Below are positions 15,088 to 30,375 of a DNA stretch of 64,000 nucleotides, piece after piece. The position numbers and the translations under genes are program-made. The notes under the pieces are model-generated. The model worked only from the letters and a program-made list of their open reading frames with translations. It searched no databases and was not told where the DNA came from. Position 1 is the stretch's first letter. Every line of letters begins with the position of its first letter. The stretch is from Myxococcota bacterium (GTDB lineage Bacteria; Myxococcota; B64-G9), in NCBI GenBank assembly GCA_022710975.1, contig JAKLGA010000004.1:248001-312000 (forward strand), written 5' to 3'.

Positions 15088-16083
15088 TTGCCGCGTCCGT
15101 CCCGCCGCCCGTCCCGGGCGCTCGCGGTGCTCGCCGCGCTCGCCCCGGCGCTCGCCCTGGGCGCGGGGCCGGGCTGCCAGGGAGGCCGCGACCGGCCCGT
15201 GCTGGTGTTCCACGCCTCCAGCCTGTCGCGCGTGCTGGGCGAGGCCGAGCGCGTCCTGGAGGCGGCCGATCCGCGCCTGGACCTGGTGCTCGAGCCGAGC
15301 GGCTCCCAGGTGGCCGCGCGCAAGCTGGCCGAGCTCGGCCGTCCGGCCGACCTGGTGATCTCCGCGGACTGGCGGGTGCTGGACGAGCTGCTCGAGCCGG
15401 CCCACGCCCCCTGGGTGCTGGGGCTCGCCTCCAACGAGATCGTGCTGGCCTACGGCGAGCACAGCCCGGGCGCCGCGGAGCTGGACGCCGCCCGCTGGCC
15501 GTCCGTCCTGCTGCGGGACGGGGTGCGCCTGGGGCGGGTGGACCCGGACACCGCCCCGCTCGGCTTCCAGACCCTGGTGGTGTGGGAGCTGGCGGCCGCC
15601 GCCCTGGGCCCGCCCGACCTGGCCGCGCGCCTGGTGGCGCGCTGCGAGCCGGGCCGCGTCGTGGCGGACGCCGAGGAGCTGGTCGCGAGCCTCGAGGCGC
15701 GCGCCGTGGACTACGCCTTCCTGCAGCGCAACCTGGTCGAGGAGCACCGGCTGCAGGCCGTGCGGCTGGGCCCGGCCCTCGACCTGTCGCGCCCCGAGCG
15801 CGCCGCGGAGTACGCCCGGGTGCGGGTGCCTGTCAGGCTGCGCGCGGGCGAGCCCCCGGTCTCGCTGCCCGGCGCCCCGGCCGTCTACGGCCTGTGCGTC
15901 CCGCGCGTGGCCACGAACCCGGAGGGCGCGCTCGGCCTGGTCCGTTTCCTGCTCTCGCCCGAGGGCCGCCGGGCGCTCGAGCGCTCGGGCTTCACCCCGC
16001 TCCCACCCGCGCTGCTCGCCGGCCGGGGGCTGCCGCCGGGGCTGGCCGCCGACCCCGCGCCGACCGGGGAGGGCCCGCGATGA
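15088..16083 (+). CDS. wtpA: Tungstate/molybdate ABC transporter substrate-binding protein (WtpA/ModA type)
   Basis: The protein has 331 residues, starting at a TTG eight bases after the lipoprotein stop with no clear RBS. It opens with an Arg-rich n-region and a hydrophobic signal ending near GAGPGC, possibly a lipobox. The mature protein follows the WtpA pattern: VLVFHASSLSRVL, LVLEPSGSQVAARKLAELG, ADLVISADWRVLDELL, ASNEIVLAYGEHSPG. The C-terminal lobe holds FLLSPEGRRALERSGFTPL. WtpA-type proteins bind tungstate and molybdate in the periplasm. Sequence alone cannot tell the two anions apart. Overlap with the permease start (ATGA) shows translational coupling in a three-gene importer. Confidence 0.86.
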   Translation: MPRPSRRPSRALAVLAALAPALALGAGPGCQGGRDRPVLVFHASSLSRVLGEAERVLEAADPRLDLVLEPSGSQVAARKLAELGRPADLVISADWRVLDELLEPAHAPWVLGLASNEIVLAYGEHSPGAAELDAARWPSVLLRDGVRLGRVDPDTAPLGFQTLVVWELAAAALGPPDLAARLVARCEPGRVVADAEELVASLEARAVDYAFLQRNLVEEHRLQAVRLGPALDLSRPERAAEYARVRVPVRLRAGEPPVSLPGAPAVYGLCVPRVATNPEGALGLVRFLLSPEGRRALERSGFTPLPPALLAGRGLPPGLAADPAPTGEGPR

Positions 16084-17321
16084 GCGCCGGGCCCGCCCTG
16101 CTGCCGCGCTGGCCCAGGAGCCTGGGGGCCGTGGCCGCCCTCGGGCTCCTCCACCTCGGGCTCGCGCTGGTGCCCGGGCTGGGGCTCGAGCCGGAGACCA
16201 ACGTCCTGCTGTTCGCCGCGAACCTGTACGTGGCCTATGGCGGCTGGCTGGTCTTCCGGGACGGGCGCCTGGCGGCGGCGCTGGGCTTCGCCGCGGGCTA
16301 CCTGGCCCTGCTGGGGCTCCTGCTGCTCGTCCTGGAGCGCGAGTCGCTGTTCGTGTTGCTGGCCATCGCCTGGGCCAGCGTGTACCGGGTGCCCGTGCTC
16401 CGCTGGCTGGTGCTCCTGTTCGTGCTGTGCTACGTGGTGCTGCAGCCCTACGCCTTCGAGTGCTTCCTGCCGCTGGCGCTGGCCGTGCTGGCCGTGCACG
16501 GGCTCCGGCGGACCGGGGCGGACCGTTTCCGGGTGGCCTGCCTGAGCCTGGGGCTGTTCGTGCTGGCCGCCCTGCTGCTGCCGGTCCTGCACCTGGTGAG
16601 CCAGGACTCGCCCCAGACGCTGCTGGCCACCCTGGCGCGCCCGGACGTGCTGGACGCGCTGGGCAGCAGCCTGGCCACGGCCGGGCTGGCCACGCTGCTG
16701 GTGCTGCTGGGCGGCGTGCCGCTGGCCTACGCGCTGGCCCGGGGGCGCTTCCGCGGCCGCGGGGCGGTTGAGGTGCTCGTCGATCTCCCCATCCTGATCC
16801 CCCAGTCGGTGGTGGGGGTCGCCATCCTGGTGCTGCTCGGGCCGGGCAGCCCGCTGGGGCGCGGGCTGGAGGAGCTCGGGCTGGGGGTGGCCGGACGCTT
16901 CGCCGGCGTGGTGCTGGTGCAGGCCTTCGTCTCCTACCCGTTCCTGGTCAAGGCCGCGCTGACCGCCTTCGAGGGCGTGCCCACCTCGCTGGAGGACGCC
17001 TCGCGCTCGCTGGGGGTCGGCCCCTGGGGCACCTTCTGGCGGGTGTCCCTGCCGCTGGCGGCGCGCGGCGTGCTGACCGGCGTCGCGCTGGCCTTCGCCC
17101 GGGCGGTGAGCGAGTTCGGGGCGCTCTTGCTGGTCGCGCCGCAGCCCGAGACCGGCCCCGTGCTGGTGCACCGGACCTTCCTGCAGGGCGGGGTGGCCGA
17201 CAGCCGGCCGGTGGCCGTGGTGCTGGTGCTGGTGTGCCTGTGGGTGTTCGTGCTGCTGCAGTTCGGGCGCGCCTTCCTGCCCGGCGCGCCGCGCGGCGGG
17301 GCGGGGGAGGTGCCGCGGTGA
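16080..17321 (+). CDS. Tungstate/molybdate ABC permease with extra N-terminal membrane domain
   Basis: The protein has 413 residues, while WtpB/ModB permeases are about 230-280. The C-terminal part (from ~175) is a standard permease: SLATAGLATLLVLLGGVPLAYALARG, LPILIPQSVVGVAILVLLG, and the EAA-type loop TSLEDASRSLGVGPWGTFWRVSLP that docks with the ATPase. The N-terminal ~165 residues add about five hydrophobic helices (ALGLLHLGLALVPGLGL, NVLLFAANLYVAYGGWLVF, FAAGYLALLGLLLLVL, and others) with no recognised domain. The start ATG overlaps the substrate-binding gene stop, and the stop overlaps the ATPase GTG. No frameshift separates the two halves. Confidence 0.88.
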   Translation: MSAGPALLPRWPRSLGAVAALGLLHLGLALVPGLGLEPETNVLLFAANLYVAYGGWLVFRDGRLAAALGFAAGYLALLGLLLLVLERESLFVLLAIAWASVYRVPVLRWLVLLFVLCYVVLQPYAFECFLPLALAVLAVHGLRRTGADRFRVACLSLGLFVLAALLLPVLHLVSQDSPQTLLATLARPDVLDALGSSLATAGLATLLVLLGGVPLAYALARGRFRGRGAVEVLVDLPILIPQSVVGVAILVLLGPGSPLGRGLEELGLGVAGRFAGVVLVQAFVSYPFLVKAALTAFEGVPTSLEDASRSLGVGPWGTFWRVSLPLAARGVLTGVALAFARAVSEFGALLLVAPQPETGPVLVHRTFLQGGVADSRPVAVVLVLVCLWVFVLLQFGRAFLPGAPRGGAGEVPR

Positions 17322-18034
17322 TCGAGCTGCGCGGCTTGACGCTCTCGCTGGGCGCCTTCGCGCTCCGCGATCTCAGCCTGACGGTGCCCGCCGGCGGCTA
17401 CACGGCCGTGCTGGGCCCGAGCGGCAGCGGCAAGAGCGTGCTGCTGCGGCTGGTGGCCGGGCTGCTCGCGCCCGAGCGCGGGGAGGTCCGCCTGGACGGC
17501 CGGGACGCCACGCGGCTGCCCAGCGAGCGCCGCCGGCTGGGCTTCGTCTTCCCGGAGGCGGCCCTGTTTCCGCACCTCGGCGTCGGCCGGAACATCGCCT
17601 ACGGGCTCGGCGCGGCGGGCCTGCCGGCCGCGTCCCGCGCCGCCCGGACGCGCGAGATCGCCCGGGCGCTGGGGGTGGAGGCCCTGCTCGGCCGGCCGGT
17701 CCAGGGCCTCAGCGGCGGGGAGGCGCAGCGCGTGGCGCTGGCCCGCGCGCTGGCGCCCGCGCCGCGGGTGGTGCTGCTGGACGAGCCGCTGGCCCACCTG
17801 GACCCGCCGGCCCGGGAGGAGCTGCGCGCGGAGCTCACCCGGCTGCACCGGGAGCTCGGCTTCACCGCGCTGCACGTGACCCACGATCAGGCCGAGGCGC
17901 GCGCGCTCGGCCAGCGGCTGGCGGTGCTGCGCGAGGGGCGCCTGGTCCAGGAGGGGCCCCGCGACGAGGTGCTGGCCCGGCCGGCGGACGAGTTCGTGGC
18001 GCGCTTCCTGGGCGCCGGGGCCGCGGCGGGCTGA
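17318..18034 (+). CDS. Tungstate/molybdate ABC transporter ATP-binding protein
   Basis: The protein has 238 residues, starting at GTG 17318 overlapping the permease stop. It has Walker A GPSGSGKS (33-40), signature LSGGEAQRVALARAL (from 131), Walker B VVLLDEP (151-157) and the switch His in HVTHDQAEA (H189). The Q-loop position, normally Gln in VFQ, is Pro here (GFVFPEAALFPHL, P79), which is unusual because that Gln contacts the magnesium and the permease. All other catalytic elements are intact and there is no C-terminal TOBE/Mop regulatory domain, so the protein is shorter than ModC or CysA. It powers import with the two preceding proteins. Confidence 0.92.
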   Translation: MIELRGLTLSLGAFALRDLSLTVPAGGYTAVLGPSGSGKSVLLRLVAGLLAPERGEVRLDGRDATRLPSERRRLGFVFPEAALFPHLGVGRNIAYGLGAAGLPAASRAARTREIARALGVEALLGRPVQGLSGGEAQRVALARALAPAPRVVLLDEPLAHLDPPAREELRAELTRLHRELGFTALHVTHDQAEARALGQRLAVLREGRLVQEGPRDEVLARPADEFVARFLGAGAAAG

Positions 18035-18047
18035 GCGGAGGGCGGGC

Positions 18048-19094
18048 GTGGACGCGAACTACCTGCCGCTGTGGAAGACGCTGGACACGCCCTTCGTGTC
18101 CCTCGACCAGAGCCACGTCGAGCTCTTCAGCCTGCTGGCCCTGCTGGGGCTGTGCCTGCTGGCCATGCTCGTCCGCCGCCGCCGCCAGGTCCTGCGCCAC
18201 GCGGTGCAGCTCGTGTCCCTGGTGATCTTCTTCTACGTGGTCTACTCCTGCCTGGGCGTGTTCGGCATGATCCGCAACGCGCTGCACGGGACCACGCTGC
18301 TGGGCACGGTGTTCACCGAGGCCTTCTTCTGGATGGCGCTGCCGGTGGTGGTGCTGGGCTTCAGCCTGACGGCCGGGCCCTACTTCTGCGGCTGGATCTG
18401 CCCGACCGGCACCCTCCAGGAGCTGGTCGTCATCCCCCGCGAGGCGCTGCTCAGCTGGCTGCGACGGCGCGGGCGCCTGGCCCCGGCGGGCGGCCGGCCG
18501 GGCGTGGCGCGGCTGCTCCTGGTCGGGCTGGTCCTGGCCGGCTTCCTGGTGGCGGTCTTCTACCTGGGCGGGACGAAGCGCTTCTACGTCGAGGACTCGA
18601 GCCTGTACTGGGGCGCGGCCCTGGTGCTGCTCGTCTTCCTGGTGGGCGCGGGCCGGGCGGACGATCAGGCCCTGCGCGCGCTGCGGGCGGTGAGCTTCTG
18701 GATCATCGTCGGCTCGGCGCTGCTGAAGAGCATGATCGTCTCGCCGGTGCACTTCGCCTTCGCCGACGTGCGCGATCCCGCCTCCGCGCTGACCACGCTG
18801 GTGCTGGTGGTGGCCTCGCTGTTCCTCAGCCGGGCCTGGTGCCGCTACGTCTGCCCCTGGGGTTACCTGATGGGCTGCGCCCACCGCGTCTCCCGCCTGC
18901 GGGTGGAGCCGGCCGGTGCCTGCGAGGGCTGCGACACCTGCGCGGGCGTCTGCCGGGTGGGCGCGGTTCAGCGCGGGGTCGTGCGGGTGGACGCCTGCCA
19001 GATGTGCCTGGCCTGCGTGGACAGGTGCCCCAGGGGGAACCTGCGCGTGGTGGACCGCTGGGCCCCGCCCGGGGGGCGTGGGGGCCCCCCGTGA
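18048..19094 (+). CDS. NapH-like membrane polyferredoxin (first copy)
   Basis: The protein has 348 residues, with GTG at 18048 after GGAGGG. About five to six membrane helices surround two CxxxCP motifs (FCGWICPTG and WCRYVCPWG), which in NapH, NosR and CcoG relatives sit at the membrane face. A C-terminal ferredoxin-like part carries CEGCDTCAGVC and CQMCLACVDRCP, enough for two [4Fe-4S] clusters. Such proteins pass electrons across or along the cytoplasmic membrane to periplasmic or cytoplasmic partners. It follows the ABC transporter by 13 bases and its stop overlaps the propeller gene start, so it belongs to the same operon. The Gly/Pro end is probably disordered. Confidence 0.92.
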   Translation: MDANYLPLWKTLDTPFVSLDQSHVELFSLLALLGLCLLAMLVRRRRQVLRHAVQLVSLVIFFYVVYSCLGVFGMIRNALHGTTLLGTVFTEAFFWMALPVVVLGFSLTAGPYFCGWICPTGTLQELVVIPREALLSWLRRRGRLAPAGGRPGVARLLLVGLVLAGFLVAVFYLGGTKRFYVEDSSLYWGAALVLLVFLVGAGRADDQALRALRAVSFWIIVGSALLKSMIVSPVHFAFADVRDPASALTTLVLVVASLFLSRAWCRYVCPWGYLMGCAHRVSRLRVEPAGACEGCDTCAGVCRVGAVQRGVVRVDACQMCLACVDRCPRGNLRVVDRWAPPGGRGGPP

Positions 19095-20584
19095 GGCCGC
19101 CCGCCGCCCTGGCGGCGCTGGCGCTGCTGGGCCTGGCCGCGGGCGCGCGGGCCGAGGCGTACTTCCCCGAGGGCGCGCGCGTCCGGCCGGGCGACTGGCC
19201 GCTCCCGCGCCACGATCCCCAGAACCGGGCCGCGGCGGAGCTCGGCGGGACCGAGGCGCCGCGCGGCTGGACCTTCGAGCCCGCCCGCCACCCCTTCGGC
19301 TACCAGCCGGGCCTGCCGGTGTGGTCCTCGCCCGCCCTCGGCCGGGTGGGCGGCCGGGCGGTGCTGGCCATCGGCTGCCACGACCGCAACCTGTACCTGC
19401 TGGACGCGGCCACGGGCCAGGAGCTGTGGCGCTACACCGCGGGCGGGGTGGTGGCCGGGGCGCCGCTGCTGTGGTGGGACGGCGCGCGCCACCTGGTGCT
19501 GGCCGCCTCCAGCGACCGGCAGGTCTTCGCCCTGGACGGCGAGAGCGGGGCGCGGGTGTGGGCCGCGGCGCTCGAGCCCTGGACCCCCTCCCTGGGCGGG
19601 GCGCGCCTGTCGGCCCCGGCCATGTGCTGGGTGGCGGGCCGGCCCGCGGTCGTGGTGGGCCACTGGTTGTGGGACAAGTCGCTGGCGGGCAACCGCCAGG
19701 CGGCCGGGCTGAGCGCGCTGGACGCCCGCAGCGGCGCGCGCCTGTGGCGCACCGAGTTCCTGGACAACCGCGTGGGGGATCCGCTGTGCGTGCGCGTCGA
19801 CGGCCGCGGGCTGGTGCTGGCCGCCTCCCTGGACGGCAACCTGCGCGCGCTCGAGGCCGACACCGGCGCGCTCGCCTGGAGCCTGCGCGAGACCCTGCCC
19901 ATCGCCGGGGCGCCGGGCTTCAGCGACGGGCCCGAGGGCCCGCGGGTGGTGGTGGGCTCCCACTTCGGCAAGCTGCGGGCCCTGGACGCCCGCAGCGGGG
20001 CGGAGGTGTGGAGCCACAAGGTCGGCCAGTGGCTCACGGCCGCACCCGCGCTGCTCGAGGACGGCGGGCGGCGCCTGTGGGTGGCGGGCGCCTTCGACGA
20101 TCGGGTGCACGCCGTGGACGCGCTGAGCGGCGCCCCGGCCTGGCGGCACGCGCTGGGCGGGCCGGTCTACTCGTCGCCCGTGGTGGTGCCCACCGAGGGC
20201 GAGCCCACCCTGGTCGTGGCGGCCGAGGACCACCAGCTCCACGGCCTGGCCGCCCGCGACGGGGTCGGGCTGTGGAGCGTGTTCACCGGCGCCCCGCGCT
20301 GGGACGGTGTGCCGCTGGGCGAGACGCCCTGGGGCTCTCCGGCCGCGGCCCGCCTCGGCGGTCGCTGGATGATCTACTTCGGCTCCTACGACGGGGTGCT
20401 GTACGCCTTCCCCCTGAGCCAGGCGGTGGCGCTGGGCCCGTCCCCGCCCTGGTCGGGCCTGCGCTTCTGGCTGACCATGGCCGGCGTCCTGGTGGGCACG
20501 GCCGGGCTGGCGCTGGGGCTCAGCCGGCGGGCCGCCCGGCTGCGGCGCGCGCGGGGCTCGACCGACGCCAGGGCGATGCCGTAG
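19091..20584 (+). CDS. PQQ-type beta-propeller protein with C-terminal membrane anchor
   Basis: The protein has 497 residues, with GTG at 19091 overlapping the previous stop. A signal peptide (AALALLGLAAGARAEA) is followed by about seven to eight PQQ_2 blades with the usual signatures (LYLLDAATGQELWRY, VFALDGESGARVWAA, LSALDARSGARLWR, VHAVDALSGAPAWRH, LHGLAARDGVGLWS). A hydrophobic helix (FWLTMAGVLVGTAGLALGL) and a basic tail end it, so the propeller faces the periplasm on a C-terminal anchor. No dehydrogenase active-site Cys pair is evident, so a scaffold or assembly role seems more likely than PQQ catalysis. Its position between two NapH-like proteins suggests it docks with one or both. Confidence 0.88.
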   Translation: MRPPAALAALALLGLAAGARAEAYFPEGARVRPGDWPLPRHDPQNRAAAELGGTEAPRGWTFEPARHPFGYQPGLPVWSSPALGRVGGRAVLAIGCHDRNLYLLDAATGQELWRYTAGGVVAGAPLLWWDGARHLVLAASSDRQVFALDGESGARVWAAALEPWTPSLGGARLSAPAMCWVAGRPAVVVGHWLWDKSLAGNRQAAGLSALDARSGARLWRTEFLDNRVGDPLCVRVDGRGLVLAASLDGNLRALEADTGALAWSLRETLPIAGAPGFSDGPEGPRVVVGSHFGKLRALDARSGAEVWSHKVGQWLTAAPALLEDGGRRLWVAGAFDDRVHAVDALSGAPAWRHALGGPVYSSPVVVPTEGEPTLVVAAEDHQLHGLAARDGVGLWSVFTGAPRWDGVPLGETPWGSPAAARLGGRWMIYFGSYDGVLYAFPLSQAVALGPSPPWSGLRFWLTMAGVLVGTAGLALGLSRRAARLRRARGSTDARAMP

Positions 20585-20596: not shown

Positions 20597-21589
20597 ATGG
20601 CTCGAGGCATGGGACACATCACCCGCCTGCGCTGGATCGTGCGCTTCGCCGCCTTCGCGCTGCTCTTGTACGGCGGCTTCGCCCTGGCAGGCCTGGACGC
20701 GGCCACGCGCCTGGCCGGGCTCCGGCAGACCAGCGCGCCGGTGGCCGCCCCCGCCGGGCGGGTGAAGCCGGTGCCCGGGCGGCCGTCCGCCTCCCAGGTG
20801 GTGCTCCCGGCCACGGTGTGCATCTACCAGCGCCAGGGGCTGTGCCGCGGCTGCAGCCTGTACTTCGTCTCGGATCTCCTGACCTGGCAGCCGCCGCTCG
20901 AGCGCTTCGGCCCCTACCTGCTGCTGCTCCTCCTGGCGATGCTGCTGGCGGGCAGGCTGTGGTGCGGCTGGGTGTGCCCGCTGGGGCTGGTGAGCGATGT
21001 CCTCACCCGCCTGCGGGTGGCGGTCGGGCTGCGGCGCCTGCGGCTGTCGGCCCGCGCGCGCGACGGGCTGGTGTGGGCCAAGTACACGCTGCTGGTGCTG
21101 GCGCTGGGGGTGGCCGCCCTGGCCTCGCTGCCCGGGCTGGCGGAGGCGCGCATCTCGCTGATGGACCCCTTCTGCCGGGTGTGCCCGGCGCGCATCTTCA
21201 CCCCCTTCTTCACCCTCGATGACCTGTGCTGGACCGATCTGTCCACCTCGACCGCCAGCGTGTTCACCGTCCTCGGGCTGCTGGCCTTCGGGCTGTTCTT
21301 CCTGGGGCTGGCCATCCGGCGGTTCTGGTGCCGGCTGTGCCCGGTGGGGGGTCTGTCGGCGCTGTTCAACCGCACCGGCCTGGTGTCGCTGGTCAAGGAC
21401 GGCTCGCGCTGCGTGCGCTGCGGCGCCTGCGAGCGGGTGTGCCCCCTGGACGTGCGCCGGGTGCGGGAGGCGGAGCACGGGGTGGTGACCTCCTACGAGT
21501 GCCACCTGTGCCTGCGGTGCGTGGAGGCCTGCCCCGAGCCAGGCTGCCTGCGCTTCCACTGGCTCGGGCGGAAGGTGACCGGCTCATGA
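20597..21589 (+). CDS. NapH-like membrane polyferredoxin (second copy)
   Basis: The protein has 330 residues. The N-terminal helix is followed by a periplasmic stretch holding CIYQRQGLCRGCSLYFVSD, an extra Cys set not seen in the first copy. Next come membrane helices with WCGWVCPLG and WCRLCPVGG, a lone DPFCRVCPARIF motif, and a C-terminal ferredoxin with CVRCGACERVCPLD and CHLCLRCVEACP. This supports two [4Fe-4S] clusters plus possible extra metal sites. An ATG four codons downstream (20609) could be the true start. The stop overlaps the ATG of the HgdB-like gene (ATGA), which ties this membrane protein to that iron-sulfur protein as a likely electron donor and acceptor pair. Confidence 0.9.
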   Translation: MARGMGHITRLRWIVRFAAFALLLYGGFALAGLDAATRLAGLRQTSAPVAAPAGRVKPVPGRPSASQVVLPATVCIYQRQGLCRGCSLYFVSDLLTWQPPLERFGPYLLLLLLAMLLAGRLWCGWVCPLGLVSDVLTRLRVAVGLRRLRLSARARDGLVWAKYTLLVLALGVAALASLPGLAEARISLMDPFCRVCPARIFTPFFTLDDLCWTDLSTSTASVFTVLGLLAFGLFFLGLAIRRFWCRLCPVGGLSALFNRTGLVSLVKDGSRCVRCGACERVCPLDVRRVREAEHGVVTSYECHLCLRCVEACPEPGCLRFHWLGRKVTGS

Positions 21590-22890
21590 CCGCCATCCGT
21601 CCGCCGTCCGCCCCGGCGCTGGCCGCGGCCTGCCGCGAGGCGGCGGAGCGCAGCCTGGCCCGGCTGGAGGCGCGCCCCGGCCGGCCCGCGGGGCTGAAGC
21701 CCTTCTACGCGTGGCTGCGCCAGGGGGCGGCCACCGCCGAGGCTGGCGGGGCGCCGCTGGTCGGCCAGGTGTGCAACTTCCTGCCCGAGGAGCTGGCCCT
21801 GGCCGCGGGGGTGCGACCCGTGCGGCTGGAGGTCGGCTGCCAGGCGGCGGTCGAGGCGGCCGGCTCCGAGGTGTCTCCGGACGGGGTGTGCTGCGCCGTG
21901 CGCGCGCTCCTGGGCGGGCTGGGGACGGGCCCCCTGGGGTTCACCCGGCTGGACCTGGTGGTGGTGCCGGCCGCGTGCGACGGCAAGCGCAAGCTGGCCG
22001 GGTTGCTCGCGCGGCGCTCCGGGATGGAGGTCGTGGCCCTCGAGCTGCCTCGACGGAAACGCGACCCGGCCTCCGCGGAGCGTTTCGTCGAGGAGCTCCG
22101 CGCGCTGCTCGCGCGGCTGGAGCGGCTGGGCGGGCGCCGGGCCGGGCGGCGGGAGCTGGCCGCGGCGATCGCGCTCATCCAGCGCCGGGCCGCAGCCTTC
22201 CGCGGACTCCAAGACCTGCGGCGGGCCGCGCGGCCGCCGCTCGGGGCCGCCGAGCTGTTCGCCGTGGCCCAGTCCGCGTTCCTGGCGGACACGGCCGGGT
22301 GGGTGGCGCAGGCCGAGGCCCTGCTGGCCGAGCTCCGGGCCGGGCCGCCGCCGTCGGGGCCGCCCCCGGTGCGGTTGCTGCTGACCGGCGCCCCTGTCCT
22401 GTGGCCGGACTTCGAGCTGCTGCTGGCGGCCGAGGAGGCCGGGGCGGACTTCGTGGCCGACGACCTGTGCTCGGGCTCGGAGCGGCTGGCGCACCCACCG
22501 GTCGTGGACGAGCCCACCCGGGACGGGCTGCTGCGCGCCGCCGCCGAGCGCGTGCTCCAGCCCTGCACCTGCCCCTGCTTCGCCGAGCACGAGGATCGCC
22601 CGCGGCGGGTCCTGGAGCTGGCCCGCCAGTCCGGCGCGCAGGGCGTGGTGCACCACACCCTGCGCGGCTGCGCCCTGTTCGAGCTGGAGAGGGCCGAGCT
22701 GCTGGCGGGCCTGCAGCTGCATGGCCTGCCGTCGCTCAGCCTGACCGCCGAGTTCGGGCTCCAGGAGGGCGGCATGCTGCGCAACCGCCTGGACGCCTTC
22801 GTCGAGGTGGTGCGCGGGCTGGCTGGATCCTCGAGCCTGGTTCTCAAGGCGAAGAGGATCCCGTCCAGTGAGCGGAGCGAGCCGGGCTAG
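21586..22890 (+). CDS. 2-hydroxyacyl-CoA dehydratase D-family (HgdB/double-cubane type) protein
   Basis: The protein has 434 residues. The fold and Cys pattern match the HgdB/BcrB/YjiM family: VGQVCNFLPEELALAAGVRP near the N terminus, then GVCCAVRALLGG, VPAACDGKRKL, ADDLCSGSERL and a late PCTCPCF, with YWG-like blocks absent. Relatives are alpha/beta subunits of 2-hydroxyacyl-CoA dehydratases and benzoyl-CoA reductases, or single-subunit double-cubane [8Fe-9S] proteins that reduce small molecules using an ATP-dependent activator. No second subunit and no HgdC-type activator ATPase lie nearby, so the double-cubane type is more likely. Substrate unknown. It ends the rightward operon, and its stop overlaps the convergent gene by four bases. 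Confidence 0.82.
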   Translation: MTAIRPPSAPALAAACREAAERSLARLEARPGRPAGLKPFYAWLRQGAATAEAGGAPLVGQVCNFLPEELALAAGVRPVRLEVGCQAAVEAAGSEVSPDGVCCAVRALLGGLGTGPLGFTRLDLVVVPAACDGKRKLAGLLARRSGMEVVALELPRRKRDPASAERFVEELRALLARLERLGGRRAGRRELAAAIALIQRRAAAFRGLQDLRRAARPPLGAAELFAVAQSAFLADTAGWVAQAEALLAELRAGPPPSGPPPVRLLLTGAPVLWPDFELLLAAEEAGADFVADDLCSGSERLAHPPVVDEPTRDGLLRAAAERVLQPCTCPCFAEHEDRPRRVLELARQSGAQGVVHHTLRGCALFELERAELLAGLQLHGLPSLSLTAEFGLQEGGMLRNRLDAFVEVVRGLAGSSSLVLKAKRIPSSERSEPG

Positions 22891-23411
22891 ATCGGATCCG
22901 GGCGCGCCTGGGCCCGGCGCTTGAGCCACAGGCCCCAGCCGAGCAACCCGCCCAGCGACAGCAGGCACACCCCGGCGATGATCCAGGTCCGGGTCGAGGA
23001 GCGCTGGGCGCCGATCTGCACCGCGCCCACGTCGACCCAGCCGTCGCCCGGCTGGGCGGCCCGGGGGCGGGCGTCCACCACCAGCCGGAAGGCGGCCAGC
23101 GCGGACTGGCCCTCGGCCCGGGCGCGCACCTCGAGCGGCAGCCGGCGGGGCGGGGTGGCCGGGGTGCGGCGCACCTTCAGGACGACCTCGACGCGGTCCG
23201 CGGGCCGGAGCCGATCGAGGCGGGCGGGCAGCACCTCGATCTGGCAGCCCTCGGCGGACGCCTCCACCTGCACCCCGTGGAGCTCGGTCACCCCCAGGTT
23301 GCGCACGAGCAGCGGCGCCTCGGCCGGCCCGTCCGCCAGGCGCAGGACCGACTCCAGGGGCACGATCCCCAGCACCTCGGCGGCCGCCAGCAGCAGGCAG
23401 AGCGGCGTCAT
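22887..23411 (-). CDS. Exported protein with Ig-like domain and C-terminal anchor
   Basis: The protein has 174 residues, with the ATG at 23409-23411 overlapping the ankyrin gene stop. It has a signal-like N terminus (TPLCLLLAAAEVLG) and a beta-rich domain of CARDB or BatD type (PLLVRNLGVTELHGVQVEAS, LRPADRVEVVLKVRRTP, RLPLEVRARAEGQ). A C-terminal helix (WIIAGVCLLSLGGLLGWGLWL) with a KRR-containing tail follows. The domain should face the periplasm. Coupling to the ankyrin lipoprotein suggests a pair working at the same membrane. The precise family is not recognised. Confidence 0.75.
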   Translation of the reverse strand: MTPLCLLLAAAEVLGIVPLESVLRLADGPAEAPLLVRNLGVTELHGVQVEASAEGCQIEVLPARLDRLRPADRVEVVLKVRRTPATPPRRLPLEVRARAEGQSALAAFRLVVDARPRAAQPGDGWVDVGAVQIGAQRSSTRTWIIAGVCLLSLGGLLGWGLWLKRRAQARPDPI

Positions 23412-24244
23412 GGCTCGGGCACCACCATCTCCAGCGGGCTCCGGCCGCGGGCGTCGCGCTGGGTCACGCTGGCGCCAGCCGAGATGAGCGCGTCGGCCAC
23501 CTCGGGGTTGCGGGCCAGGTGCAGCGGGGTCATGCCAAGGGCGTCGCGCGCCTCGAGATCGGCCCCGGCCTGCAGCAGCAGGCGCACCACCGCGCCCGAG
23601 CCGGCCTCGTGCAGCGGGCTCAGGCCGTAGCGGTTGCGGGCGTGGGGGTCCGCTCCGCGGGCCAGCAGCAGCCGGACAAGCTCCACGCGGCCCTCGAGCG
23701 CCGCCCAGTGGAGCGCGGTCATGTCGTTGAGGCCCCGGGCGTCCACCCGGCCGCCGCGCTCCAGCAGCAGCGCGACCACACCAGGCCGGTCGAGCAGCAC
23801 GGCCGTGGTGAGCGGCGTCCAGTCGAAGCGGTTCCGCGCCTCGAGCGGCGCGCCGCGCTCGAGCAGCAGGCCGGCCACCTCGGGCGTGGCCGCCAGGTGC
23901 AGCGGGGTGTGCAGGCGCTCGTCGCGGGCGTCGACGGCCGCCCCCCGCTCGAGGAGCAGCCGGGCCGCGCCGGGCGTGGATGCCAGGTGCAGCGGGGTGA
24001 GCCCGCGCGCGTCCCGGGCGCGCGCATCGGCGCCGGAGGCGAGCAGGCGAGCGACCTCGGCGTCCTTCCCCCAGAAGGCGGCGCGGTGGACCGGCCCCAG
24101 GCTGGCGTCGGGCCCCGTCAGGCCGTGCAGCCGGAGCGCCCGACCCCAGTCCTCGCCGCAGCCCGCGCAGGCGAGCGAGGCGAGCGCCAGCGCGGCGGTC
24201 GCCAGCCGGGGGAGGGTGGTCAGGGGTCGGACCCGGGCGCGCAT
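23408..24244 (-). CDS. Ankyrin-repeat lipoprotein
   Basis: The protein has 278 residues. The N terminus is a signal sequence with Cys residues in SLACAGC, consistent with lipid modification. From ~45 onward there are about seven ankyrin repeats (typical lines: DARGLTPLHLASTPGAARLL, RLHTPLHLAATPEVAGLLLE, LNDMTALHWAALEGRVELVR). Ankyrin repeats bind proteins and have no catalytic role. The start ATG (24242-24244) lies five bases after a GAGGAT that could serve either as a weak RBS or as the -10 of a leaderless promoter. Partner candidates include the coupled Ig-like membrane protein. Confidence 0.88.
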   Translation of the reverse strand: MRARVRPLTTLPRLATAALALASLACAGCGEDWGRALRLHGLTGPDASLGPVHRAAFWGKDAEVARLLASGADARARDARGLTPLHLASTPGAARLLLERGAAVDARDERLHTPLHLAATPEVAGLLLERGAPLEARNRFDWTPLTTAVLLDRPGVVALLLERGGRVDARGLNDMTALHWAALEGRVELVRLLLARGADPHARNRYGLSPLHEAGSGAVVRLLLQAGADLEARDALGMTPLHLARNPEVADALISAGASVTQRDARGRSPLEMVVPEP

Positions 24245-25494: not shown

Positions 25495-26589
25495 ATGCAG
25501 GACGGTCAGGGCAGAGGTGGACGGGCAGGGCGGCAGGGCGGGTTGAGCCGGCGGCGATTCCTGGCCGCGGTGGGGGGAGGCGCGGCCGCGCTGGGCGCCG
25601 CGGCCTGCCTGCCCCACGTGTCGGGCGAGTGGGGCACCTGCAGCGAGCCGGACGGCGGCGGCGCCGACGGGGCGCAGGATGGTGGCGGGGGCGCTCCGCC
25701 CGCGCCGCTCTCCAACCGGGTGGTGGAGATCGCCCCCCCGGGCCTGGTGGATCCGGACACCCTGCTCATCGACACCACCCGGCTGCCGGAGCTCCTGTCC
25801 GCCGGCCTGCTGGCCCTGACCGGCGCGGCCAGCCTGGCCGAGGCCTGGCAGGTCGTGCTGCCCGGGCGCCTGCCCGGGGAGCGGGTGGGGCTCAAGGTCA
25901 ACACCTTGAACGCGCGGGTGTCCTCCTCGCCCGCCGTGGTCAGCGCGCTGGTGGCCTCGCTGCGGGCCGACGCGGGCGTCCCGGACGCCGAGCTGCTCGT
26001 GTGGGACCGCAGCCTGCGCGAGCTCACCCGGGCCGGCTTCGACGGGGCGGCGCTGGGCTGCTCGCTGGTCGGCACCCAGGCCTCCTCCACGGACCCGACC
26101 GGCCCGGGCTACCTGCGCGAGTCCGTGTGCCTGTCGGGGCGGCAGATCTACCTGTCCAGCGTGCTGACGGCGGGGCTCGAGCACCTGATCAACGTGGCGG
26201 TGATGAAGAACCACCTGGCGGCCGGCTTCACCGGGGTGCTCAAGAACCACTACGGCTCCTTCTCCAGGCCGGAGGACTTCCACGAGGGCTGCGAGCAGCA
26301 CATCGCCAGGCTGAACGCGCTGCCCGCCATCGCGTCGAAGAGCCGGCTGCACGTGCTGGATGCCCTGGTCGGGGTGTGCGCCGGCGACACGGCCGACCCG
26401 CCCGACTGCGCCCCGGGCAAGCTGCTGCTCGCCTTCGATCCCGTGGCCCTCGACCGGCGCGGGGTGGAGGTGCGGGACGAGGTCCGCGCGGCCAGGGGCG
26501 CCCCGCCCGGAGCGCCCGCGGCTTATCTGGAGCTGGCGGCCGAGCTGGGTCTGGGCTCCCTCGAGTACGACCTCGTGCGGATCACCTGA
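25495..26589 (+). CDS. Tat-exported DUF362 lipoprotein (second copy)
   Basis: The protein has 364 residues, from the ATG at 25495 after GAGGTGAGG; the frame is open further upstream but without an RBS. The signal combines a twin-arginine motif (LSRRRFLAAVGGGAAALG) with a lipobox (GAAAC), so the protein should be exported folded and lipid-anchored. An Asp/Gly/Ala linker follows. The DUF362 core shows VGLKVNTLNA, SPAVVSALVASLRADAGVP, LINVAVMKNHLAAGFTGVLKN (the counterpart of the LPVAKAHD/GLKNLMG blocks) and LLLAFDPVALDRRGVEV. It faces the leftward DUF6599/DUF362/polyferredoxin genes and overlaps the DUF6599 stop by eight bases. Confidence 0.9.
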   Translation: MQDGQGRGGRAGRQGGLSRRRFLAAVGGGAAALGAAACLPHVSGEWGTCSEPDGGGADGAQDGGGGAPPAPLSNRVVEIAPPGLVDPDTLLIDTTRLPELLSAGLLALTGAASLAEAWQVVLPGRLPGERVGLKVNTLNARVSSSPAVVSALVASLRADAGVPDAELLVWDRSLRELTRAGFDGAALGCSLVGTQASSTDPTGPGYLRESVCLSGRQIYLSSVLTAGLEHLINVAVMKNHLAAGFTGVLKNHYGSFSRPEDFHEGCEQHIARLNALPAIASKSRLHVLDALVGVCAGDTADPPDCAPGKLLLAFDPVALDRRGVEVRDEVRAARGAPPGAPAAYLELAAELGLGSLEYDLVRIT

Positions 26590-27475
26590 GCTTGGCCAGC
26601 CAGGCGGCGGCCTCGGTGGCGTCCCTGGCCCCGCCCACCCAGCGCAGCACCGCCCCCTCGACGCGCACGAGCTGGTGGGTCTCGTCCGGCCCCACGCCGG
26701 CCAGGCCGCCGTCCGCGGGCTTCAGGCCGAGCTTCTGGCCCAGCGCCTGCGCCGCCGCTCCGGCCGCGGTGGGGCTGGGGTAGGCAGCCCGGGTGAGCTG
26801 CAGGTCCCCGTCCGCGCCGGGGTACAGGGCCAGCACGGCCTGGCCGCCCCCCTCGAACAGGACGTCGGCCTCGCCCTCGAGCCACAGGGTGCGCGCGGTG
26901 TCGGGGTGCACCAGGTAGCGCTGGCTGCCCGGCAGCGCGCCCTCGGGCAGGTGCGCCAGCTCCGCCGGGGGCAGGCTGTCACCGGGCAGGCGGGCGTAGG
27001 TGGCCCGGCCGAGCGCGAGCAGGGCGGCGGTCGCCTGTGTGGCCGGGGTCTCGGCCACCACGCGGACGTAGAAGCGCCCGCGGAAGAAGCTCAGCATCCC
27101 GTTCGTCAGGCTGGCCGGGCCGCCCACGTCCTGGGCCGTGCCCCGCCCGCCGAAGGCGCAGATGCCGAAGGCCTCGGCCGGGCCGCCCATGCGGTAGATG
27201 GCCACGCGCGCGCTCGCGTCGCCGAGGCGGTAGCGGCGCACGCCCAGCTCGTCGAACCCGAAGCCCAGGTAGAGCTCCGCCCCGCCATCCATGTAGTCGA
27301 ACAGCCTCCGTCCCACGAAGTGCTCGGCCGGCTCGCCGGGCACGATGCCCAGGGCGGCGTCCGCGCCCGGCAGCAGCGCGATCACCTGGGGGGGCTCTGC
27401 GCCGGCGGCCGGGGCGGCGGGCGCGGACAGACACAGGAGCGCGGCCAGGGGTGTCCAGGCGAGTGCGGTGCGCAT
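26582..27475 (-). CDS. DUF6599 family exported protein
   Basis: The protein has 297 residues, with a signal peptide ending PAAPAAGA. The core reads RRLFDYMDGGAELYLGFGF, then VRRYRLGDASARVAIYRMGG and EAFGICAFGGRG, which is the DUF6599 pattern (Y-x-hydrophobic-x-G-A-A, Y, then YxMG followed by A). A second half (YLVHPDTARTLWLEGEAD onward) is beta-rich. No function is established for the family. The gene is three bases from the stop of the DUF362 gene at 27479, with which it is co-transcribed, and its end overlaps the convergent DUF362 lipoprotein gene. Export suggests it works in the periplasm. Confidence 0.87.
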   Translation of the reverse strand: MRTALAWTPLAALLCLSAPAAPAAGAEPPQVIALLPGADAALGIVPGEPAEHFVGRRLFDYMDGGAELYLGFGFDELGVRRYRLGDASARVAIYRMGGPAEAFGICAFGGRGTAQDVGGPASLTNGMLSFFRGRFYVRVVAETPATQATAALLALGRATYARLPGDSLPPAELAHLPEGALPGSQRYLVHPDTARTLWLEGEADVLFEGGGQAVLALYPGADGDLQLTRAAYPSPTAAGAAAQALGQKLGLKPADGGLAGVGPDETHQLVRVEGAVLRWVGGARDATEAAAWLAKLR

Positions 27476-27478
27476 GCG

Positions 27479-28405
27479 TCAGACCTCGAGGCGCTGGATC
27501 TGGTCGTCGGGCAGGCCGAGCTGGCCCACGCCCATGTCCTGGCAGCGGGCCAGGTGCTTGATCTGCCGGGGCTTGATCTTCCGGTCGTAGAGCGGCGCCA
27601 GCTCCACGCCGGCCGCGTCCACCGCCACCAGGTCGCTGCCGGCCAGGATGGCGTTGGTGGTCTCGAGCTTGCCCGGCCCGGAGGGCCCGCCCGAGGTCAT
27701 CACCTGCAGCCCGTCCAGCACGGTGAGCTGCGCCTTGAGGAGCGTGTTGAGATCGGCCACCGCCTGGTTGAGGTCCAGCTCCGAGTGGAAGATCTCGCGG
27801 TCGTGCACCAGGCCCATCATGCCCTTGGCCGCGCCGGAGAAGCCGGCCGCCGAGTGGCTCTTGGCGATGGGCGCGGCGATGAGCACGTCCGCCTCCAGCG
27901 CCTCCTTGAGCACCCGGGTGCGCTTCAACGACTTGCCCCTGGGGACGTCCACCTGGACGTAGAACTTCTCGTCCATGGGCAGCAGCACGTGGACGTCCAG
28001 CCCTGCGAGCGCCGCGCGGATGCCGTTCTGCTGCAGGCAGGCCTCCGGGGCGCGCATGGGGTTGTCCATGACCATCACCCGGGCGGCGCCGGCCTCGAGC
28101 ACCTCGCGCACCACGGCCGCGACCACGCGCGGATCCGTGGTGGCGCGCACGGCCGGCGCGGTGGGGAAGCCCATGTTGGGCTTGATGAGCACCCTGGCGC
28201 CCTTCTTCACGAAGGCGGCCATGCCGCCCAGCGGGGCGAGCGCCTTCTTGACGGCGCCGGCCACGTCGGCCGGTACCCCCGGCCCGCGCACCTGGACGAG
28301 CTGCAGCTTGCCCGCGGCCCGCGAGAGGCTCGGCCGACCCAGGGCCAAAGCCGCCGCGGTCAGCGCGGCCTGCCTGAGGAAGTCGCGACGCGAGGAGTCG
28401 GACAT
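27479..28405 (-). CDS. Tat-exported DUF362 protein (third copy)
   Basis: The protein has 308 residues, with a strong GGAGGT before the ATG (28403-28405). It has a twin-arginine signal (SSRRDFLRQAALTAAALALG). The core contains VLIKPNMGFPTAPAVRATTD, VVAAVVREVLEAGAARVMVM, DVLIAAPIAKSHSAAGFSGA, AKGMMGLVHDREIFH and AGSDLVAVDAAGVEL. It is closer to the copy at 9395 than to the lipoprotein copy at 25495: both share the TDPRVVAAV/HPAVVAEV block, the SAGLKNLMG/GAAKGMMG block and a late LVAVDAAG/PVALDALA block. It lies 80 bases downstream of the polyferredoxin gene and directly upstream of DUF6599, forming one leftward unit. Confidence 0.92.
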   Translation of the reverse strand: MSDSSRRDFLRQAALTAAALALGRPSLSRAAGKLQLVQVRGPGVPADVAGAVKKALAPLGGMAAFVKKGARVLIKPNMGFPTAPAVRATTDPRVVAAVVREVLEAGAARVMVMDNPMRAPEACLQQNGIRAALAGLDVHVLLPMDEKFYVQVDVPRGKSLKRTRVLKEALEADVLIAAPIAKSHSAAGFSGAAKGMMGLVHDREIFHSELDLNQAVADLNTLLKAQLTVLDGLQVMTSGGPSGPGKLETTNAILAGSDLVAVDAAGVELAPLYDRKIKPRQIKHLARCQDMGVGQLGLPDDQIQRLEV

Positions 28406-28485
28406 GTTCACCTCCGCCCTGACGCGGGCCAGTCTACCCGATCCCGACGCGCCAGACCACGCCGGTATGCACACGGCGTCGGGCC

Positions 28486-30339
28486 TCAGGCGTCGGGGTC
28501 GATGCCGGGCGGCAGCGCGGGCAGGGCGTCGTCGCCCTCGGCCTCGATGCCTGGCGGCAGCGCGGGCTTGCCGTCCGGTCCAGGCGGGGCGTCGGGGCCG
28601 GGGTAAGGGAGCCCGGGCTCGAGCCGCTGCGGCGCGTCGCCAGCCCTGGGCCGCGGGTCGAAGACCTGGTCGGGGAGCGCCCCGCCCTTGGCCTGGAAGT
28701 CGTAGCCCAGCAGCGCCGCCTCGGCCACGTAGGAGCCCGTGGCCAGGCGCAGCTCGCCGTGGGGGGTGACCAGGATGGCGGCCTCGCCGGCCACCGGGCA
28801 GCGCTTCTCGCAGGTGCCGCAGCCCGCGCAGCGCTTCTGCTCCACCACCGGCAGGCCCGCCTTGTGGGCGGCGTCGCGCACCGCGTAGATGGCGTTGTAC
28901 GGGCAGACCTCGTCGCAGATCAGGCAGCGCCGGTCCTGGGCCCAGGCGATGCAGCGCTCCTTGCGGATGACCGCCGTGCCGAGCTTGGCGTGCTGTTTCT
29001 CTGGCAGCGGCAGCGCGCGGATGGCCCCGGTCGGGCACACCTGGCCGCACACGTGGCAGGTGTGCTCGCAGGAGCCCTGGCGCATGACCGCGACCGGCGT
29101 CCACAGCCCCTCCAGGCCGGTGCGCTGCCAGTCCGGCTGCAGGCAGTTGGTCAGGCAGGCGCGCATGCACTCACCGCAGCGCACGCAGCGGTCGAGGAAC
29201 TCCGGCTCGGGCACCGCCCCGGGCGGCCGCAGCACGTCCGCGTGGGGCCGCTGGCCGGGGCGGGGGTGGGCGCGGTCGGCGCCGAGCGGCAGGCCGGCCG
29301 CCAGACCGCCCAGCGCCGAGGCCAGGAAGCCGCGCCGGGCGAGCCCGGGGCCGGGCCGGGCCGCGTCCGTGTCCGCCTTCCGCGCGGCGAAGCCGAAGCG
29401 GATGGCGTCCTCCGGGCACACGCCCGCGCACCCCCGGCACACGATGCACTCGTGCCGGTCGAAGGCCTTGCCCCCCTCGTGGATGGCGCCGGTCGGGCAG
29501 GCGCGGGTGCAGCGGTTGCAGGCGGTGCAGCTCTCGTTCACCCGCCGGCGGTAGGGCGCGAAGCGCCCCAGCCAGCCCAGGCCCGAGCCCAGCGGGCACA
29601 GGTGGCGGCACCAGAAGCGCGGCTGGAGCCGGCCGAGCAGCAGCAGCGCGGCCAGCAGCAGGAAGGTCCAGGCCGCGCCGTCGAAGGCCGGGCTGGGCAG
29701 CTCGGTGTACTGCAGACCGATCCAGCCCAGCCACTCGGACACCGGCCGCAGGGCGTCCAGGCCGGCCGACTGCAGCAGCAGGCCGAAGGGGTAGAACAGC
29801 ACCGCGGCGAAGCGGGTGGCCAGCGCGATCGGGTCCACGAAGCCGAGCAGGTTCGTGCCGGCCAGGCCGGCGAACAGCAGCACCAGCAGCACCGCGTGCT
29901 TGGCGGGCCGGGCGCGCAGGTAAGACTCGCGGTTCTCCTTGAGCCCCTGGCGCCGGCCGAGGAAGCGGTCCGACAGGTCGAGCAGCGCCCCCAGCGGGCA
30001 GGCGTGCGAGCAGAACACCCGGCCCATGACGACGCTCACGGCCACGAGCAGCAGCGACAGGAGGCAGGCGGTCTCCAGCGCGCGCGCGGCCAGGCCCTGC
30101 ACCACGGCCACCAGCGGGTCGATGCGCAGGAAGCTCTCCACCCCCCAGCCCGGCCGGCCGTCGTAGGCGGCCAGCCACAGGAGGCCGACGAACAGGGCGG
30201 CGAAGCCCACCTGGAACCCGCGCCGCGCGTCCCAGCGGAGGCCGGCCAGCACGGCCAGGGCCAGCCCGAGCCCGAGGAAGGCGAAGGCGGGGTGGAAGCC
30301 CGAGGCGGCCACCGCGGCCGCGGGTGCGCTGGTCGGCAT
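28486..30339 (-). CDS. NapH-NapG-like fused polyferredoxin
   Basis: The protein has 617 residues. The N-terminal ~230 residues hold five to six membrane helices and two CxxxCP motifs (FCSHACPLG, FWCRHLCPLG), as in NapH. A ferredoxin part follows with CTACNRCTRACPTGAI and CIVCRGCAGVCPEDAI. Then an internal Tat-like stretch (LARRGFLASALGGLAAGLPL) leads into a NapG-like part with CVRCGECMRACLTNCLQP, CEHTCHVCGQVCPTGAI, CLICDEVCPYNAI and CAGCGTCEKRCPV, for up to six [4Fe-4S] clusters in all. The end is a Pro-rich tail with a duplicated ALPPGI. It could carry electrons from membrane quinol to the periplasm. The ATG lacks an RBS and lies seven bases after a -10, so I prefer it over an upstream in-frame TTG that belongs to the -35. 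Confidence 0.93.
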   Translation of the reverse strand: MPTSAPAAAVAASGFHPAFAFLGLGLALAVLAGLRWDARRGFQVGFAALFVGLLWLAAYDGRPGWGVESFLRIDPLVAVVQGLAARALETACLLSLLLVAVSVVMGRVFCSHACPLGALLDLSDRFLGRRQGLKENRESYLRARPAKHAVLLVLLFAGLAGTNLLGFVDPIALATRFAAVLFYPFGLLLQSAGLDALRPVSEWLGWIGLQYTELPSPAFDGAAWTFLLLAALLLLGRLQPRFWCRHLCPLGSGLGWLGRFAPYRRRVNESCTACNRCTRACPTGAIHEGGKAFDRHECIVCRGCAGVCPEDAIRFGFAARKADTDAARPGPGLARRGFLASALGGLAAGLPLGADRAHPRPGQRPHADVLRPPGAVPEPEFLDRCVRCGECMRACLTNCLQPDWQRTGLEGLWTPVAVMRQGSCEHTCHVCGQVCPTGAIRALPLPEKQHAKLGTAVIRKERCIAWAQDRRCLICDEVCPYNAIYAVRDAAHKAGLPVVEQKRCAGCGTCEKRCPVAGEAAILVTPHGELRLATGSYVAEAALLGYDFQAKGGALPDQVFDPRPRAGDAPQRLEPGLPYPGPDAPPGPDGKPALPPGIEAEGDDALPALPPGIDPDA

Positions 30340-30346
30340 GGAGGAG

Positions 30347-30375
30347 AAGGTACCATCCGCCCGGTGGGCCGACAA
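30347..30375 (-). promoter_or_regulatory. Promoter of the fused polyferredoxin gene, probably leaderless
   Basis: Leftward TTGTCG (30370-30375), 17 bases, TACCTT (30347-30352), then seven bases to the ATG at 30339. There is no Shine-Dalgarno sequence between the -10 and the start. Confidence 0.5.

Follow-up and report, generated by a model that had tools for sequence, protein, structure and literature searches.

A sister clade of double-cubane proteins associated with a membrane polyferredoxin and lacking a linked activator in a family of Myxococcota

Can a protein related to the 2-hydroxyacyl-CoA dehydratases operate with neither a second subunit nor an ATP-dependent activator encoded beside it? 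This question was raised by a gene (21586..22890, + strand) in the window analyzed here, a stretch of 64,000 nucleotides from a Myxococcota genome (G000; 7.1 Mb, 29 contigs). The encoded protein of 434 aa matched PF06050 (HGD-D) with 222 bits against a cut-off of 28.4. An earlier note on this DNA had described it as an HgdB-type protein without an adjacent partner subunit or activator, and had proposed that it might draw low-potential electrons directly from the membrane chain. Profile searches of the contigs bore out the first point, as neither a second PF06050 match nor a match to the activator family PF01869 was found on its contig (C24). A search of the whole genome for HgdC-type activators identified an HgdC-like gene on contig C3 and a BcrA/BcrD-like pair on contig C1, located beside other PF06050 genes, of which each of these contigs carried two.

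Among solved relatives, the closest by sequence were double-cubane proteins (DCCPs; E 6.5e-32 and 1.3e-31), followed by MbdN and BzdN (6e-16 and 7e-16) and then by the beta subunit of 2-hydroxyisocaproyl-CoA dehydratase (1.7e-07). Exactly six cysteines were invariant in the DCCP-like protein, its six orthologs (hereinafter the seven are referred to as window-type) and two canonical DCCPs: C63 (codon start 21772), C102 (21889), C131 (21976), C295 (22468), C329 (22570), and C362 (22669), which are the predicted cluster cysteines. In a MAFFT alignment, they corresponded to C36/73/100/263/293/327 of BzdN, which are the [8Fe-9S] ligands of that protein (PMC11971306); in a pairwise alignment, BzdN C73 stood opposite C103, one residue off the invariant C102. 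The six cysteines were complete in the window-type, DCCP, and BzdN/BcrC-like rows wherever sequence was present (one DCCP row was truncated), and the HgdA/HgdB- and BcrB-like rows of the same alignment did not have the full set. An AF2 model made from the seven window-type sequences (mean pLDDT 81.4, pTM 0.85) had DCCP (6eno) as its top match in both Foldseek (E 2e-23, TM 0.80) and VIA-align 2 (Z 45, 2.1 A, 395 residues). BzdN and the HadC-type chains of the dehydratase beta subunit were close behind (Z 41-42), so that the fold alone cannot separate DCCP from these proteins; outside the PF06050 group, the structural search gave nothing above Z 6.1.

A tree was calculated from 46 rows, comprising 44 of the 46 PF06050 hits from the nine genomes of the family together with DCCP and BzdN; it was rooted at the midpoint for drawing only, and its HgdA/HgdB and Bcr branch labels were taken from profile scores in the own genome. 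The seven window-type proteins formed one clade (100/100), which joined the DCCP clade at 99/94 as its sister, outside the DCCP clade itself and apart from the BzdN/BcrC-like and HgdA/HgdB-like branches. With the DCCP model NF040772, the protein scored 194 bits, below the cut-off of 350. Four other orthologs scored 170-253, and the two canonical DCCPs of the family 438 and 453. Since the BcrC-like subunit of the own genome scored 213, this model alone does not single out the DCCP-like protein. Given the score below the cut-off and the sister position, we assign the protein, on the basis of its sequence, to a sister clade of DCCP rather than to DCCP, with a shared predicted fold and six shared putative ligand cysteines. 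It is not a subunit of a 2-hydroxyacyl-CoA dehydratase. The placement among double-cubane proteins, which the earlier note had named as a point to check, proved right by sequence, tree, and fold. DCCPs are described as homodimers with one cluster per monomer (PMC11971306); the absence of a gene for a second subunit is therefore expected.

The window-type protein thus resembles DCCP of Carboxydothermus hydrogenoformans (PDB 6eno, 7yyl, 7yzm; NF040772), its nearest clade, in fold, in the six cluster cysteines, and in having one kind of subunit, but differs in its NF040772 score and in that no gene for the ATP-dependent reductase DCCP-R is adjacent; in Calderihabitans, DCCP and its reductase have neighbouring locus tags (PMC7306483). 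DCCP is characterized as an [8Fe-9S] homodimer that reduces small molecules at the expense of ATP. It is instead paired with a NapH-like polyferredoxin, whereas canonical DCCPs of two family genomes (G002, G008) lie beside an activator. With BzdN/BcrC of class I benzoyl-CoA reductase (PDB 8s02), it shares the fold and the six [8Fe-9S] cysteines. Those proteins form heterodimers with BzdO/BcrB and have an ATP-dependent activator; the window-type protein has neither gene linked and belongs to a separate branch.

The window-type gene was present in seven of the nine family genomes (G000, G001, G004-G008). A profile scan of the same phylum detected the clade in 7/195 genomes, with scores of at least 540 bits; the best match beyond these scored 243. 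A first scan of wider genome contigs found no relative, and a second, with two strict peptide patterns derived from the alignment, returned six loci, which correspond to the six known relatives; other phyla were covered only through these two patterns. One plasmid match was obtained, at 28% identity. The contigs of the seven genes (18 kb to >300 kb) contained no other PF06050 match, and hence no HgdA/HgdB-type second subunit alongside, and none contained a PF01869 match (0/7). An adjacent activator in relatives, which would have pointed to a rearrangement in the own genome, was thus looked for at the six orthologous loci and not found.

In the nine family genomes, PF01869 was found within 10 kb of 32 of the 39 remaining PF06050 genes and of none of the seven window-type genes (Fisher test, p 6e-5, which treats genes as independent although kinship is shared and HgdAB pairs are counted twice). 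Five of the seven other genes without a nearby activator lay at or near contig ends, and the remaining two constituted a single HgdAB pair in the middle of a contig (G005, C98). For one of the five, a canonical-clade DCCP in G003, the contig was cut on the upstream side, and 11.8 kb of downstream sequence contained no activator. Because of this DCCP and the G005 pair, an unlinked activator is not unique to the window-type clade. In G002 and G008, a canonical DCCP was directly followed by an activator, with no Fd2 in the stretch covered. G008 carried both arrangements: the canonical DCCP match was 25 bp from the activator match, and the window-type gene was directly behind Fd2. The missing linked activator is a real oddity of the locus; the missing second subunit is not. 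As a separate observation, the next ORF after the canonical-clade DCCP of G003 (L135 1-1600) was not an activator; we take it to resemble YedF/TusA.

The gene that precedes the DCCP-like gene encodes Fd2 (20597..21589, +), a NapH-like membrane polyferredoxin with about four TM helices and two C-terminal 4Fe-4S motifs, which matched the Fer4_5 and 4Fe-4S dicluster profiles. The ATG of the DCCP-like gene overlaps the TGA of Fd2 (CTCATGACC), in line with the translational coupling read from the DNA earlier. At E <= 1e-20, Fd2 was detected in the same seven genomes as the window-type gene and in 0/87 others (94 searched); inside the family, this co-occurrence is weak evidence, since only two genomes lack the pair. 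Fd2 directly preceded the window-type gene in five of the seven, with overlapping start and stop codons in four (G000, G004, G007, G008) and a one-base gap in G006; non-ATG starts (GTG or TTG) were assumed in three of these five pairs. In G005, Fd2 was about 8 kb away, and in G001 the two genes were on separate contigs. The G005 Fd2 (L045 700-1100) was without the second 4Fe-4S motif, via a deletion or frame change, which may be real decay or an assembly error.

Hydropathy windows of Fd2 merged into four TM helices, and six cysteines (C75, C83, C86, C193, C196, C211) were invariant in six aligned sequences. If the ferredoxin end is inside, these cysteines would lie on outer (periplasmic) loops; this topology is not clear-cut, as the first outer loop has 7 K/R vs 1 D/E, which disfavours an outside placement. 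The fold model of Fd2 was of low confidence (pLDDT 41). Fd2 is similar to the NapH/RdhC/NosR module in its four or so TM helices and its first motif, CX3CP, and its C-terminal 4Fe-4S motifs are as in NapH and NosR. It is unlike the module in its six further conserved cysteines in loops read as periplasmic and in its second motif, CX2CP, where NapH has a second CX3CP; its scores against two NapH models (74 and 75 bits) were below the cut-offs of 213 and 234. NapH of Wolinella has been proposed to accept electrons from quinol, and the cytosolic ferredoxin NapF requires it for attachment to the membrane (PMC5928378). By analogy, NapH and NapF provide a fair model for how Fd2 might recruit a soluble Fe-S partner.

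Upstream of Fd2, genes were identified for a WtpABC-like ABC transporter (15088..18034, +; 15088-16083, 16080-17321, and 17318-18034, starts placed partly by eye), each protein of which scored below its NCBIfam Wtp cut-off, for a second NapH-like membrane polyferredoxin, Fd1 (18048..19094, +; profile matches), and for a BamB/PQQ-like beta-propeller (19091..20584, +; profile match; its start, a signal peptide, and a C-terminal TM were assigned by eye). The transporter and propeller genes were syntenic. Convergent with the DCCP-like gene (22887..24244, -) were genes for an Ig-like TM protein (22887-23411, -), read by eye with no Pfam match, and an ankyrin-repeat protein (23408-24244, -). A gene at 25495..26589 (+; profile match) encodes a DUF362 protein in which a Tat-like signal was noted by eye; a homologue of it adjoins the window-type gene in G001 and G005.

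Fd1 was found in 11/94 genomes, namely the seven and G018, G023, G024, and G037. The latter four, which belong to the same phylum, had the order wtpABC, Fd1, propeller, with an opposite-strand ankyrin gene next in three of them, and contained neither Fd2 nor a window-type gene. In G000 and G004, the Fd2 pair was flanked by the propeller on one side and the Ig/ankyrin genes on the other, and G006 had it in the same place but inverted; in G007 and G008, the pair was not on the same contig as the Fd1 module. As four genomes have the cluster without the pair, and G000, G004, and G006 have the pair within it, Fd2 and the DCCP-like gene look as if they had been added together to an older cluster of wtpABC, Fd1, and propeller. 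In G023 and G024, a single ORF combined ankyrin repeats with a subsequent Ig/TM tail of similar appearance (by eye); at 22887-24244 in the window, the two are separate genes.

Our preferred reading, to which we give a probability of roughly 0.6, is that a cytosolic double-cubane redox protein works with a dedicated membrane polyferredoxin, Fd2, and that the pair was added to an older cluster. The DCCP-like protein would be a cytosolic, probably homodimeric protein with a double-cubane [8Fe-9S] cluster, as its six cysteines suggest. Fd2 would tether it to the membrane's inner face, both forming one working unit, and would exchange electrons with it through its two cytosolic [4Fe-4S] clusters; the contact, like the direction of the electrons and any substrate, is something we infer. 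The pair would thereby have joined a membrane redox and transport cluster of WtpABC-like transporter, Fd1, and propeller. The two genomes in which Fd2 is not adjacent (G005, G001) count against this reading.

A plausible alternative, at slightly under even odds, is that a DCCP-type reductase is primed in trans by an unlinked activator, with Fd2 serving another step or only membrane recruitment. It overlaps the preferred reading, as either allows an ATP-dependent activase in trans, and the odds given here consequently do not sum to one. Candidates in the own genome are HgdC of C3, BcrA/BcrD of C1, and three fused double-domain activases on C5, C13, and C23 (L004, L005, L006), each >1000 aa with two BcrAD ATPase domains, DUF2229, and the CAAGTG and CxVF motifs, on contigs with no PF06050 gene. 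Activation in trans is further favoured by the presence of PF01869 proteins in all nine family genomes, by the unlinked HgdAB and canonical-clade DCCP genes mentioned above, by ten PF01869 hits, in five of these genomes, that are partial and fall outside the activator assignment, and by the double-cubane enzymes and class I benzoyl-CoA reductases described in PMC11971306, which rely on an ATP-dependent module for electron activation. Against it, none of the 24 full-length single-domain activators in these genomes is left over, as each lay within 2 kb of another PF06050 gene; this count sets apart the ten partial hits, seven kinase-like genes of ~900 bp, and 39 rows that belong to fused ORFs >1000 aa. 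Such fused ORFs occurred in 9/9 family genomes, and so also in G002 and G003, where the window-type gene is missing. It is very improbable that the protein belongs, as a subunit, to a 2-hydroxyacyl-CoA dehydratase or benzoyl-CoA reductase and that a rearrangement removed its partner and activator from the neighbourhood. PF06050 membership and the fold match to BzdN and the HadC-type chains agree with it; we rejected it on the basis of the tree and of the six orthologous loci, which are likewise without partner and activator; besides, activator-linked PF06050 genes are present on C1 and C3 of the own genome.

Electrons may also run the other way, from the cytosol through the double cubane and Fd2 to periplasmic partners, in which case the DCCP-like protein might have a non-catalytic role, storing electrons for the Wtp-like/Fd1/propeller system or acting as its redox sensor. 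We regard this as unlikely. It agrees with the six conserved Fd2 cysteines on loops read as periplasmic, with the propeller and DUF362 neighbours, whose signal peptides were read by eye, with the proposed route from quinol via Wolinella NapH and NapG to the periplasmic nitrate reductase (PMC5928378), and with the reading of the BzdN [8Fe-9S] cluster as a centre of electron transfer or storage (PMC11971306), but it depends on a topology of Fd2 that was taken from hydropathy. Electrons may, as the earlier note proposed, pass straight from the membrane chain to the DCCP-like protein. The potential cited for the quinol couple is -74 mV, and the making of low-potential electrons from quinol is called unresolved in the same source (PMC5928378), while the second and third electrons into the BzdNO clusters need less than -600 mV (PMC11971306). 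An energy input would therefore be needed, which counts against a simple transfer of membrane electrons. A bolder version, in which the ATP-driven activator has been dropped altogether and electrons are gained or shed through the dedicated polyferredoxin, is quite doubtful; very low-potential [8Fe-9S] chemistry would then be linked to the membrane rather than to ATP hydrolysis, with proton-motive reverse electron transfer as one possible route.

The biological function of DCCPs is called unknown in PMC11971306. A sister clade accompanied by a polyferredoxin rather than an activator would provide a two-gene unit for asking whether ATP is replaceable, and Fd2 is a candidate physical partner for a DCCP-type protein. 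Literature searches joining 2-hydroxyacyl-CoA dehydratase with polyferredoxin, and NapH with DUF362, gave no match.

A tungsten link via aldehyde:ferredoxin oxidoreductase was considered and rejected, as the WtpABC-like module does not track AFOR_N. AFOR_N was present in 9/9 family genomes, including G002 and G003, which had no Fd1 or Fd2 match at E 1e-20 and no window-type gene, and Fd1 was present without AFOR_N in G018 and G024. The own genome has a kinase-like PF01869 homologue on C27. A kinase-like PF01869 gene of ~900 bp (L052 9045-10862) occurred in exactly the seven genomes with the window-type gene; a motif scan did not find CAAGTG in it, and the match to the same seven of nine may be chance, with only two genomes lacking it. 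Further, a neighbouring block at 25495-30375 in the window encoded a third polyferredoxin (NapH plus NapG-like) along with a DUF6599 protein and a pair of DUF362 proteins, for which Tat-like signals were noted by eye; elsewhere, DUF362 was found again in G005 and G006, and DUF6599 in G006.
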